Origin: a virus
DNA: 20,728 bases
IMG/VR virus record: IMGVR_UViG_3300029448_000555
Coordinates: 1 to 20,728 of that record
Strand: one strand, 5' to 3'
In this document: positions 2,692-20,505 of the stretch, piece after piece
Position numbering within the stretch: the stretch's first letter is position 1
Layout: each line of letters starts with the position of its first letter
The notes under the pieces: generated by a model
The model's database searches: none
Told to the model about the DNA's origin: nothing
Seen by the model: the letters and a program-made list of their open reading frames with translations, nothing else
Made by a program: the position numbers and the translations under genes

Positions 2692-2973
2692 CTACTCCTT
2701 TGAATATTTATCTTTTACTGCTTTAATAGCTTTTTGAAAATTATCTCCACCTTGACCAGCATGATATATCATATCTAATTGATCACCTATAGATGGATAA
2801 TCTTCTTCTCTATCTCTTTGATATTTTTTAGCTTCCCACTCTGTTTTAAGAGTAGCTATATGTTTAGCTCTTTTTGTATCATCTTTATAATCTGATAAAC
2901 CAAATCGAGAAACTATTTCTTTATAAATGGAACTATGTTCTTCTTTCCATGTTTTTAATTTTAAATATTTCAT
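2692..2973 (-). CDS. Small protein with PSIGDQLD motif, probable fibre assembly factor (93 aa)
   Basis: Contains YPSIGDQLDMIYHAGQGG at about residues 59-76, a motif well known from marine phage tail modules, where it occurs either as a small stand-alone protein or at the end of fibre-assembly proteins. The N-terminal half is highly charged and helical (RAKHIATLKTEWEAKKYQRD). No membrane segment or signal is visible. The gene starts at a TAATG overlap with the preceding fibre gene and has no obvious Shine-Dalgarno, so translation probably relies on coupling. Function unknown; placement among fibre genes and the family context suggest an assembly role rather than a virion component. Confidence 0.62.
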   Translation of the reverse strand: MKYLKLKTWKEEHSSIYKEIVSRFGLSDYKDDTKRAKHIATLKTEWEAKKYQRDREEDYPSIGDQLDMIYHAGQGGDNFQKAIKAVKDKYSKE

Positions 2974-3512
2974 TATTTTAATCTACAACCTCCCCATGAG
3001 CAGTGTGGTGGATACCAATCACAACCAGTTGTAGCAATAACTGCCATTGTATCTCCACTTGTTAAAGGAACAACAATAGAAACTGTTTGTTGATGGTCAT
3101 CATCAGAACTATTTAAACCAGTAAATTTATCATCTGTACCATGAGAATAATCAATTTTTCCACTATTTTTTAAAAAACCAAATTCATTACCAGTATCTTG
3201 ATTTGCAGTATATATAGTGTACCAAAATATATAAACACCAGTAGCAGGTGCAGTGTACTTATACGTTGATGTATTATAATTAGAATCTGTATCAAAGCTG
3301 TCGCCAGTACTAACATTATTAAAACCAAGTATTCCATTAGTACTTAATGTAGCCCAAGTTGTTGGTGTAGTAGCTCTAGCTGAAAATGCACCAGTGCCAG
3401 CTGCACTAGCATTAACTGGAAGACTATTAAATGTAGCTACCCCTGTGTTAGCTACAGTCATAGCAGCATTACCTGTTGTGCTTTGTATAGCACCGACTTT
3501 TAATGTACTCAT
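2973..3512 (-). CDS. C1q-like jelly-roll tail protein (179 aa)
   Basis: Clearest C1q-like member of the array. Residues 1-30 are the docking tag (MSTLKVGAIQSTTGN, then GVATFNS). The jelly roll begins near residue 42 with GAFSARATTPTTW and continues through ILGFNNVSTGDSFD, YKYTAPATGVYIFWYTIYTA, a polar loop with several Asp, and a final SGDTMAVIATTG strand. Order and spacing of the 'FsA', 'Fn', 'taPxxGvY' and 'GD' elements match C1q/TNF-type virion proteins of marine phages. Two Cys and several aromatic residues lie in the last 20 residues (CDWYPPHCSWGGC), which may form a disulfide or metal site. GGAGGA lies six bases before the ATG. Ligand unknown. Confidence 0.75.
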   Translation of the reverse strand: MSTLKVGAIQSTTGNAAMTVANTGVATFNSLPVNASAAGTGAFSARATTPTTWATLSTNGILGFNNVSTGDSFDTDSNYNTSTYKYTAPATGVYIFWYTIYTANQDTGNEFGFLKNSGKIDYSHGTDDKFTGLNSSDDDHQQTVSIVVPLTSGDTMAVIATTGCDWYPPHCSWGGCRLK

Positions 3513-17620: not shown

Positions 17621-19291
17621 TTAAATCCACTCGGTATCATCTTGTTCAAATGTTTCAAACTTCTGAGACCACGGGACTTTATCTCTTGTTAACTTATCAT
17701 AATGTGTACGCAATGTTTCTAAACCAATAGCCATTGCCATAACAGTATCATCATGACACCCAGGAGCTGCTTCTGTTTTTCCTGAGTTTGTACTAATATA
17801 ATCTTTTAATTCTTGAATTATAACACTAGAACCAATCCATATATCATCATTTTCAACAGCGTTTTTTAAATTACCAATAATGTGAGGCTTAGTTGCCTGG
17901 GTTGTTCTAAAACCTGGAACTTGTCCTTCTTCTTTTGATATAGCTGAAATCTTTGTTTGCTTATATAAATTAATATAATTCATTTGTGTTAGACGTGATA
18001 AGGTTGCAATACCCATTGAATTACTTTCAACAGTTAATAATGCATTATTATAGTATCTTCCTAAATAAAATAACAAATCACCAAACTTACTAGGATCAAT
18101 ATGGTTATCTCTATACAAACCAATTATCCTTCTTTCTGTATCCATAACTATTGCTGCTGAATAATCTTGACCTACCCCTAAGGATACATCAGCCGCAACT
18201 ACATAGTTAGAATCCCAATCAGGATAATCCCATATATAAAAATTTCCTTCATTTGTATCTTCCCACATTGAAGCATTGAAATCAAATCTCATTCTTTTTT
18301 CTGGAGCAATAGCTTCTAATGCAGATAACTTATCTAAAGCAAATACTGAAGAGCCTGCCGTAATAAATGCTTCATCGGGAGTTGCTGGGTATTCTTGGCG
18401 GAACTTTAGTTCCCCACCTTCAGCAATCTTCAACCGACGCCAGTAGAGCTGACCATCATTTAGATCGTACTGTTCTACTAGTAGCTCTTCTTCACTTGAG
18501 CGTTCGAATGTTTCTGGAGGATCTCTATAATATTCTTTTGTAATAAACCATGGTAAAAATATTGGAGTATATTCATTTTCACCCTCAAGAGCTCCTCTCC
18601 ATAATCTATAAAATTCTCCTGTTGCACCATTAGCTGTGGACTCAAGAATAACTTCAGTACCCTCAGCTTCAGATATACCCTGGAACAAACCAGCTAATAT
18701 CTTTTCATCATGTTGCCAGAATGCAATCTCTGATAAATGTGCAATAGTAGGTGTTGTACCTCTTCCAGCTTCAGGCGAACCTGCTGTGTATAATCTATAT
18801 GATGCTACAGGTTTTTCACCAGATGTATCTTTTTTAAATTGAGGTGACGATATAACAATTTCTTTTGCATTTGATTTTAATTCTTTTGGCTTATATGTAG
18901 GTGCCATATTCCTAATAAGATTTCTACTCATTGTAAACAACGCATCTGAGGTTGCACTATCATGTGCCATAACAACTGAACGTGCATGTGGTGTAAAGTA
19001 TGTTTTCCAAAACACTCTTCCTGCACAATATGTACTTATACCTTGTTGTCTTGCTTTTAATATGATTGCTCTTACTTTACCTGTAGTAGCAAGTTGCGTA
19101 TCTAAAATTTCTGATATTTGTTTTTGACAATCATTAAAAGTAAAATTTACAAAACCCCTTTTAGCGTCTTTAGTAATAATCTTTAAGTTATCAGCAGCAA
19201 ACTTTTCAAAGTTATTTTTATATTGGTTTATATCTTTACGCTTCTTACGCTCTTCCAATAACTTTAACAACTCTTTTGTTTGACTACTCAT
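17621..19291 (-). CDS. terL: Terminase large subunit (556 aa)
   Basis: Motor ATPase and nuclease that packages DNA into the prohead through the portal. ATPase: Walker-A-like KARQQGIST at residues 79-87 (the R-x-Q-G-x-S/T form), Walker-B region IAHLSEIAFW with Ser-Glu at 187-188, and coupling segment VILESTANG at about 214-222. Nuclease (RNase H-like): VVAADVSLGVGQDYSAA with Asp368, VESNSMG with Glu422, and GCHDDTVMAMAIG with Asp514/515. The length is usual. The gene is the first of the leftward operon with AGGA 8-11 bases before the ATG. No small subunit is recognisable on either side in this window. Confidence 0.96.
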   Translation of the reverse strand: MSSQTKELLKLLEERKKRKDINQYKNNFEKFAADNLKIITKDAKRGFVNFTFNDCQKQISEILDTQLATTGKVRAIILKARQQGISTYCAGRVFWKTYFTPHARSVVMAHDSATSDALFTMSRNLIRNMAPTYKPKELKSNAKEIVISSPQFKKDTSGEKPVASYRLYTAGSPEAGRGTTPTIAHLSEIAFWQHDEKILAGLFQGISEAEGTEVILESTANGATGEFYRLWRGALEGENEYTPIFLPWFITKEYYRDPPETFERSSEEELLVEQYDLNDGQLYWRRLKIAEGGELKFRQEYPATPDEAFITAGSSVFALDKLSALEAIAPEKRMRFDFNASMWEDTNEGNFYIWDYPDWDSNYVVAADVSLGVGQDYSAAIVMDTERRIIGLYRDNHIDPSKFGDLLFYLGRYYNNALLTVESNSMGIATLSRLTQMNYINLYKQTKISAISKEEGQVPGFRTTQATKPHIIGNLKNAVENDDIWIGSSVIIQELKDYISTNSGKTEAAPGCHDDTVMAMAIGLETLRTHYDKLTRDKVPWSQKFETFEQDDTEWI

Positions 19292-19320: not shown

Positions 19321-19348
19321 AGGGGACATTTAATTTTAATTGTCTCCT
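19321..19348. other. Inverted repeat between terminase start and late promoter
   Basis: AGGGGACA (19321-19328) pairs with TGTCTCCT (19341-19348), 8 bp with one G-T wobble, around a 12-base AT-only loop. It would lie in the 5' leader of the terminase mRNA. Possible mRNA structure or protein-binding site; nothing further is supported. Confidence 0.45.
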
Positions 19349-19353
19349 TTAAG

Positions 19354-19458
19354 AGGGGGCCAGATATATAACTATACATATAACTATAAGCTCTTAAGAG
19401 TGTGAATCAATTTAACTCTATATTTTTTTATATATACCTATATATCTTCTAACCCCCT
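19354..19458. other. Long imperfect inverted repeat spanning late promoter
   Basis: AGGGGG (19354-19359) complements CCCCCT (19453-19458), and AGATATATA (19362-19370) complements TATATATCT (19439-19447), giving two nested arms that enclose the promoter and its palindrome. This could form a cruciform or an RNA stem. Two direct copies of ATATAACTATA (19366-19376 and 19378-19388), separated by one base, lie on the left arm. Could be an operator or origin-like site; function unknown. Confidence 0.5.
19383..19410 (-). promoter_or_regulatory. Candidate leftward (late) promoter with palindromic spacer
   Basis: On the minus strand TTGATT (-35, plus 19405-19410) and TATAGT (-10, plus 19383-19388) are 16 bases apart, matching sigma70-type boxes at 4/6 and 5/6 positions. 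The 10-bp perfect palindrome CTCTTAAGAG (19391-19400) lies wholly inside the spacer, as an operator would. Transcription would start near 19376, about 85 bases before the terminase ATG. Sequence match only. Confidence 0.5.
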
Positions 19459-19494
19459 ACTTTCTAATATCTCTCTTTATATCTATATACTCTT

Positions 19495-19516
19495 AAAATC
19501 TCTATCGAGATTTTTT
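19495..19516 (+). terminator. Hairpin/T-run element, class A copy 1 (TATC loop)
   Basis: An 8-bp stem AAAATCTC/GAGATTTT closes loop TATC and runs into six T. It shares a conserved block of about 31 bp with the copies at 19918 and 20410. Which transcript it would end is unclear, because no rightward gene lies before it; it may insulate the early promoter that follows at once. Confidence 0.65.
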
Positions 19517-19545
19517 ATTACACTTATTATAAAATCAATTATAAT
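19517..19545 (+). promoter_or_regulatory. Candidate rightward (early) promoter
   Basis: ATTACA (19517-19522, 4/6 to TTGACA) and perfect TATAAT (19540-19545) are separated by 17 bases. The -35 box abuts the T run of the class A hairpin. A start near 19552 would give a leader of about 14 bases carrying the CGGAG ribosome binding site for the G-poor ORF. Strong by pattern, unproven. Confidence 0.62.
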
Positions 19546-19565
19546 ATTCACACACGGAGCACGAT

Positions 19566-19835
19566 ATGTACCAATTTATTAATCCTTTATATAATCAACA
19601 ACAAATTCAAAACTTCTCTAATTACTTTCTTAATCCTAAAGTAATTCCCTTAATTCAAAATAAACAATTCTCTTTATCTTATATTATTATAAATAATCAA
19701 ACTAATATTCCTTATACTAAATTTCATAATAATATAAACTCCTTTCTTAATATTAAACCTACTCCTAATAATATTAATAATACTCAACAACTACCTTCTT
19801 CTCCAACTCCTGAAGAACCTCCTCTACCTCTCTAA
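19566..19835 (+). CDS. G-less early ORF encoding Asn/Gln/Pro/Ile-rich protein (89 aa)
   Basis: No known family. The ATG at 19566 has CGGAG about six bases upstream, a promoter just before it, and a strong terminator four bases after the TAA. The coding strand has only four G in 270 bases (start codon, one Val, two Glu) against about 60 C. The protein therefore lacks Ala, Gly, Asp, Arg, Trp and Cys entirely and has about 17 Asn, 10 Gln and 12 Pro. It begins MYQFINPLYNQQQIQNF and ends in a Pro-rich tail (PSSPTPEEPPLPL), with no membrane helix or motif. In-frame TAA is absent although TAA is common in the other frames, which favours true coding. Low-complexity and probably disordered or aggregation-prone; a role in host takeover is only a guess. 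Confidence 0.66.
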   Translation: MYQFINPLYNQQQIQNFSNYFLNPKVIPLIQNKQFSLSYIIINNQTNIPYTKFHNNINSFLNIKPTPNNINNTQQLPSSPTPEEPPLPL

Positions 19836-19839
19836 AACT

Positions 19840-19863
19840 AAAGGGCCTAACGGCCCTTTTTTT
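19840..19863 (+). terminator. Terminator, class B copy 1 (TAAC loop)
   Basis: Perfect 8-bp stem AAAGGGCC/GGCCCTTT with loop TAAC and seven T. It starts four bases after the stop of the G-less ORF, giving a monocistronic unit. High confidence as an intrinsic terminator. Confidence 0.9.
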
Positions 19864-19939
19864 AAAGTACTACCATCCTCCACCGAGATCCGAAGGAGAG
19901 CTGGCGTACCGTAGTCCAAAATCCTTATCAGGATTTTTT
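19864..19939 (+). ncRNA. Candidate small structured RNA between two terminators
   Basis: About 50 bases without any ORF lie between the class B terminator and the next class A hairpin. ACTAC (19869-19873) can pair with GTAGT (19911-19915), and CTCC (19878-19881) with GGAG (19895-19898), forming a stem with internal loops and a purine-rich apical loop. The base composition (G-rich) contrasts with the flanking G-poor unit. No promoter directly upstream is evident, so it would need read-through of the previous terminator or an unrecognised promoter. A small RNA or an antitermination site are the alternatives. Confidence 0.4.
19918..19939 (+). terminator. Hairpin/T-run element, class A copy 2 (TATC loop)
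   Basis: An 8-bp stem AAAATCCT/AGGATTTT with loop TATC and six T. Continues into TTATACTT, the conserved downstream part of class A, which contains a -10-like TATACT (19942-19947) ahead of the zinc-ribbon gene. Confidence 0.82.
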
Positions 19940-19971
19940 ATTATACTTTAAACTAACTGAGGAGAATCTAA

Positions 19972-20142
19972 ATGGTTGATGTCGATTACTGGTCAGCTTA
20001 TGAAATACTAGAAGGTGAAGAAGGTCAATGTGATAACTGTTATCATCCCGAAGACTTTCCACATCTTACAATAGCTGAAGCGAAAGAAAAGTTCGACGAC
20101 GTAAAAGTCGGACATCGGATATGTATGTATTGTCTGAGATAA
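19972..20142 (+). CDS. Small zinc-ribbon-like early protein (56 aa)
   Basis: Reads MVDVDYWSAYEILEGEEGQ, then Cys20-Asp-Asn-Cys23, a helical middle (IAEAKEKFDDVKVG) and Cys51-Met-Tyr-Cys54 two residues from the end. Two CxxC knuckles 27 residues apart with several His between are a typical zinc ribbon or treble-clef-like site, used in small phage regulators and RNA polymerase-binding or anti-sigma-like proteins. No specific family is recognised. GAGGAG lies seven bases before the ATG. It is followed eight bases later by a class B terminator and so forms its own unit. Zinc binding is inferred from the cysteines. Confidence 0.72.
   Translation: MVDVDYWSAYEILEGEEGQCDNCYHPEDFPHLTIAEAKEKFDDVKVGHRICMYCLR
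20111..20121. repeat. Direct repeat GACATCGGATA, copy 1 (copy 2 at 20189-20199)
   Basis: An 11-base perfect direct repeat, one copy inside the zinc-ribbon gene and the other in the leader beyond the terminator, 67 bases apart. It could be a protein site or base-pairing target; may also be chance. Confidence 0.4.
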
Positions 20143-20409: not shown

Positions 20410-20431
20410 AAAATCGCTAACGCGATTTTTT
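20410..20431 (+). terminator. Hairpin/T-run element, class A copy 3 (TAAC loop)
   Basis: An 8-bp stem AAAATCGC/GCGATTTT, loop TAAC, six T, then the conserved TATTATACT flank. It ends the membrane peptide unit. Confidence 0.85.
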
Positions 20432-20460
20432 ATTATACTAAACTATATTACTCATACATC

Positions 20461-20488
20461 TATAATCATATCAAAAGATCACTGTGAT
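20461..20488 (+). promoter_or_regulatory. Possible -10 box and operator-like palindrome before the SSB gene
   Basis: A perfect TATAAT (20461-20466) has no convincing -35 at 16-18 bases, so promoter activity is uncertain. Twelve bases on, ATCAC-T-GTGAT (20478-20488) is an odd-length perfect palindrome lying where a repressor would cover the start site. Confidence 0.4.
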
Positions 20489-20505
20489 TAATTAGTTATC
20501 TACCA

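Follow-up and report, generated by a model that had tools for sequence, protein, structure and literature searches.

Transcribed stretches without guanine are known from G-less cassettes used in vitro and from G-free leaders such as TMV omega, and strand-asymmetric mitochondrial genes offer coding sequence in which one strand is G-poor. The former are, however, man-made or short untranslated leaders, and the latter are mutational, genome-wide and incomplete, whereas the locus described here is natural and coding, reaches 1 kb and is affected even at its start codon, with a loss of G that is local, near-absolute and, as argued below, selective. To our knowledge, no natural gene does without one base on its coding strand, start codon included, and we know of no described phage in which a gene has a cytosine-free template strand; a partial literature search turned up no relevant account of G-free phage genes. 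Two kinds of phage provide points of comparison. Cytosine-modified phages of the T4 type carry dCMP hydroxymethylase genes, as do the phages considered here, and Roseobacter phage CRP-7 has a terminase, DNA polymerase, RNA polymerase and SSB akin to theirs but, unlike the phages that carry the G-poor unit (the cassette), has neither this unit nor a dCMP hydroxymethylase gene.

The window, by which we mean the whole analyzed stretch of 20,728 nt, holds homologues of the CRP-7 terminase and SSB, and the DNA polymerase and single-subunit RNA polymerase of the CRP-7 group were checked in relatives, outside the window; judged by these genes, it belongs to a CRP-7-like marine podovirus. The start of its SSB is 82% identical to that of G001, a genome of 58,008 nt with identical 77-nt ends that is probably complete. 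The G-poor zone lies between the terminase gene on the minus strand and an early block on the plus strand that opens with small ORFs and the SSB, and the elements of the locus are as follows.

17621–19291, minus strand: terminase large subunit, the divergent neighbor (60% identity to the CRP-7 terminase).
19322–19347, no strand assigned: conserved inverted repeat GGGGAC-N14-GTCTCC upstream of the terminase (nearly all group-1 relatives).
19405–19838, plus strand: G-excluded zone (C-free template) of leader, ORF and stop (counts, segment score, simulations).
19433–19459, no strand assigned: conserved border motif TATACCt-N-AACCCCCTA (aligned upstream regions).
19495–19516, plus strand: terminator-like hairpin AAAATCTC-TATC-GAGATTTTTT within the zone (sequence).
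19517–19545, plus strand: sigma-70-like ATTACA-17-TATAAT ahead of the ORF (sequence match).
19556–19559, plus strand: Shine-Dalgarno GGAG (sequence).
19566–19835, plus strand: NPLYN-family ORF of 89 codons (profile-found relatives, dN/dS).
19840–19863, plus strand: closing terminator AAAGGGCC-TAAC-GGCCCTTTTTTT, the stem of which may hold G (sequence).

An earlier, sequence-only reading of the window had reported eight G in 19405–19811, long G-free runs, a strand-specific loss and a nearly G-free ORF, and our recount bears this out in full. The 407 nt contain A151 C83 G8 T165 on the coding strand, with G at 19507, 19509, 19556, 19557, 19559, 19563, 19568 and 19641, and G-free runs of 170 nt (from 19642), 102 nt (from 19405) and 72 nt (from 19569). 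Because C in the zone (20%) equals that of the window (4088/20728), the loss is specific to one strand. The binomial probability of eight or fewer G in 407 nt at p = 0.142 is 8e-18, and none of 300 simulations from a first-order Markov model of the window reaches either the G-poor score of the actual sequence (308, best-scoring segment 19405–19842) or the length of its longest run (170), the simulated maxima being 108 and 89. Outside the zone, the longest G-free and C-free runs in the window are 79 and 32 nt, respectively. The ORF has 4 G in 270 nt (start, one Val, two Glu), the two Glu G lying ahead of the terminator and beyond 19811, where the earlier count stops, and its product consists almost exclusively of amino acids with G-free codons. 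An Rfam search gave zero matches, the sigma-70-like matches in the 19517–19545 region are not enriched over shuffles, and the composition of a Rho utilization-type site (C up, G down) was not found, C being no higher in the zone than in the window at large (20% in both) and 13% in L034.

Terminase searches returned 126 loci in two main groups (terminase 63% identical between groups), and a G-poor unit stands at the same place in about 40 related contigs. Two units lack G altogether, namely L182 (1047 nt) and L160 (identical to L106; 603 nt), and others come close, with 6 G in the 956 nt of L039, 5 G against 290 C in the 1072 nt of L149, 3 G in the 721 nt of L005, and 7 G against 213 C (35% C) in the 615 nt of L029. 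The earlier reading had allowed that the feature could be one of chance or mutation if related phages carried G at ordinary frequency in this locus, or if similar stretches were common in the genome. This reservation is borne out only in part. Relatives with ordinary G do exist (L004, with a terminase 93% identical, L022 and L141), but all are without the cassette, which is also absent from CRP-7 and its 61 related loci. Comparable G-free stretches elsewhere in the genomes were not found: the longest G- or C-free run outside the locus is 117 nt in 376 kb scanned, and in G001 the zone scores 783 as a one-base-free segment, far above the 188 of the runner-up in that genome. We note that in four loci without the cassette (L141, L159, L178 and L181) GG-rich early ORFs follow a short G-poor leader upstream of the terminase, and that in L150–L152 and L174 a leader of some 255 nt containing 2 G precedes a Lys-rich ORF of normal G content, such that a leader may be G-poor without a G-poor gene.

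Most units encode members of the NPLYN family, a small domain, duplicated in some, followed by a Pro/Gln/Thr-rich tail. Used as a single query against viral contigs, the window ORF gave no matches, and a profile (A1) was needed to recover relatives; none were found in the phage collection or in the genome contigs, and the ORF matches no PHROG family and no Pfam entry above cut-off. The window protein alone gives a poor structural model (pLDDT 61). For the L034-type protein, modeled with a core pLDDT of about 88, no Foldseek match reached E ≤ 0.001, the top VIA hit was a designed binder with Z = 5.7, and no clear fold match emerged. Other units carry unrelated G-poor ORFs, i.e., a different 84-aa ORF in L032, two membrane mini-proteins in L043, three ORFs in L052, and two further unrelated sets in L045 and L055; relatives of the L052 mini-proteins occur in L021, where G is more ordinary. 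With at least five unrelated ORF sets in the unit, the exclusion of G is a property of the locus and not of one protein, and such exchange of early genes at one site is a pattern expected of a counter-defense gene locus.

The exclusion also persists through divergence. The zones of L034 and L039 are 17% diverged, and their 133 substitutions comprise 55 A/T, 48 C/T and 29 A/C exchanges and a single A/G. When dN/dS is counted on a three-letter alphabet, the NPLYN ORF gives 0.10–0.61 in ten close pairs, in line with its being a coding sequence under purifying selection, and 0.86 in the very divergent pair L139–L182. Taken with the recurrence of the exclusion across the five or more unrelated ORF sets, its persistence favors selection over drift, as had been proposed, and we regard selective exclusion of G at this locus as well supported. 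It extends to initiation: in L182 and L160, the aligned ATG reads ATA or ATC (ATC in L160) with the reading frame kept, and a conserved G-free 25-nt element occupies the Shine-Dalgarno position ahead of the start. As every NTG start contains G, these genes need a non-standard start codon, if they are translated.

The gene content of the relatives suggests what might be avoided. Group 2 encodes a relative of the T4 dCMP hydroxymethylase (E = 3e-59 to the solved T4 enzyme), and group 1 a more distant ThyA-family protein that carries Asp instead of Asn at its base-reading residue, a change that in ThyA favors dCMP. On this basis, 5-hydroxymethylcytosine (5hmC) probably replaces cytosine in the DNA of these phages. 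The window does not extend far enough to show a dCMP-hydroxymethylase-like gene, which is known from relatives, being present in 16 of the 20 records searched (all but CRP-7 and three incomplete records) and in all six longer records with a cassette (G001, G004, G005, G011, G017 and G024). Ten relatives have the gene with no cassette seen, so the gene does not predict the cassette; it may be necessary for it, though not sufficient. A TET-associated glucosyltransferase (TAGT) occurs only in G018 and G020, both without the unit, and a search for this family found none in the cassette phages; as a marker of the cassette it was dropped, two relatives, both without the cassette, being too few. In G018, the gene (L204:18219-19172, Pfam TAGT 1e-13) adjoins that for dCMP hydroxymethylase. 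By eye, a ThyX-like thymidylate synthase is also seen in group 2 (L137, reverse complement 2830-3474).

Two described glycosylases act on such DNA: Brig1 removes modified cytosine from phage DNA and leaves abasic sites (PMC11078745), and Brig3 excises 5hmC with the same outcome (PMC13160076). Abasic sites in the template, in turn, stall bacterial RNA polymerase (PMC10881389). T4 escapes Brig1 by altered glucosylation. RNA without G means a template strand without C, and the reading we prefer, tentatively and in the expectation that it is somewhat likelier to fail than to hold, is that selection keeps (modified) cytosine out of the template strand, which would leave the gene transcribable after attack by a 5hmC glycosylase. 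Putative host glycosylases would convert 5hmC to abasic sites, which on the template strand would stall RNA polymerase, while a C-free template would receive none and stay readable despite abasic sites and nicks in the other strand. The cassette, presumably transcribed early by the host polymerase, would then supply exchangeable counter-defense genes from damaged DNA. Such a mechanism would explain the strand specificity and near-absoluteness of the exclusion, its inclusion of leader and hairpins, its independence of the protein, and the exchangeable early genes. Its fuller form, a damage-proof counter-defense gene in which a C-free template makes transcription immune and even the start-codon G is removed, leaving G-free genes started by AUA or AUC, is possible but rather doubtful.

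Where G survives bears on this template reading and on a rival at the RNA level. The claim that G is kept just where elements need it is supported, with residual G found in ribosome sites, the start codon and terminators, and toward the 3′ end of the ORF. Across 23 NPLYN-type units, with the ATG left out, G amounts to 0.13, 0.26, 1.09 and 2.42% in the four successive quarters of the ORF, a relaxation that the template model ascribes to the low cost of a transcription block late in the ORF. Leader G is 1.1% in the same units, mostly owing to L010, L012 and a palindrome in L013, and two to six leader G remain in some units. The palindrome of L013 (about 2370-2475) is a G-rich insertion of about 95 nt, with its G paired inside the hairpin. 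Both the remaining leader G and this palindrome weigh against the template model. It is unlikely, in our view, that selection instead acts on the RNA, through a host or phage endoribonuclease or RNA-modifying toxin that attacks G in an mRNA that must survive infection. Such an attack would fit the absence of G from precisely the RNA-like strand, its retention in terminator stems and ribosome sites, and the relaxed 3′ part. However, residual leader G is paired no more than randomly placed G (0.72 vs 0.75), the start codons of L182 and L160 have lost their G though ribosomes would shield the start, adjoining early mRNAs have normal G, and a partial literature search found no guanine-specific antiphage ribonuclease.

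We consider it improbable that a function of the DNA itself, for instance as an origin of replication or as an extended single-stranded tract, needs the C-free strand, with the ORFs adapting to it. The zone does lie between divergent gene blocks and adjoins the border motif, which occurs once per genome searched, at the left zone edge in relatives both with and without the cassette, and its internal terminators point to more than one transcript. Against this, L004, L022 and L058 are close relatives with the motif but without a G-free stretch, AT-richness is not universal among the zones (C reaches 35% in L029), and coding genes under purifying selection lie within them. The motif remains a candidate promoter, operator or origin element; its single copy per genome rules out a repeated phage promoter. 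In the window, three alike elements (19495-19526, 19917-19948 and 20410-20439) consist of a hairpin AAAATC...GATTTTTT followed by TTATTA(T/C)AC, and each looks like a terminator with the beginning of the next unit.

Structure-independent translation would be another reason to dispense with G, and an unstructured mRNA was among the purposes first proposed. RNA without G has little structure, and several units of group 2 have no Shine-Dalgarno sequence, as might suit a leader and ORF made for fast translation in the manner of G-free viral leaders. We nevertheless give this little credence, since conserved A-U hairpins persist inside the units and the loss of every G, start codon included, exceeds what fast translation requires. 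Internal hairpins occur in G-bearing or A-U-only form, the most extreme units lacking G even in stems. The hairpin at 19495–19516, for instance, contains both leader G of the window (19507 and 19509), each predicted to be paired, and has A-U-only counterparts in L005, L007, L034 and L182. That such hairpins are retained indicates that the absence of structure is not the aim. We also observe a conserved loop like ATCATATCAAAATATCAC in long A-T-only inverted repeats in the zones of L034, L039, L005 and L007, and again at 20455-20500 of the window, outside the zone.

Expression of the unit while GTP is very scarce would make a single G matter, and the leader is as strict as the ORF, but this is very improbable, given that translation itself requires GTP and that G still stands in terminator stems; we know of no antiphage system that depletes GTP. 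The alignments of G-bearing with G-less sequences (L004 to the window, L021 to L052) speak against extreme deamination, which had also been offered: of 45 lost G, 26 became A, 13 T and 6 C, whereas simple deamination, or hypermutation by a deaminase, predicts A only. Mutational pressure through strand-biased cytosine deamination on the template strand, which does predict a strand poor in G but ordinary in C, can thus hardly have stripped the G, the more so as the L160 start became ATC, most units retain the ribosome-site G and the ORF is under purifying selection.

If the template reading holds, it would describe a new way of protecting information, in which the phage, rather than repairing or hiding its DNA, leaves the attacked base out of the transcribed strand. 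An essential early gene would be encoded around the attacked base, some eleven amino acids, those with G-free codons, would suffice to build working proteins, and the phages would provide a natural case of non-AUG starts.

Two further genes were noted in passing. A small early ORF of the window (19972-20142) encodes a zinc-finger-like CDNC...CMYC, and a protein resembling, by eye, the phosphate-binding protein PstS is encoded in G001 (reverse complement 46947-47975).
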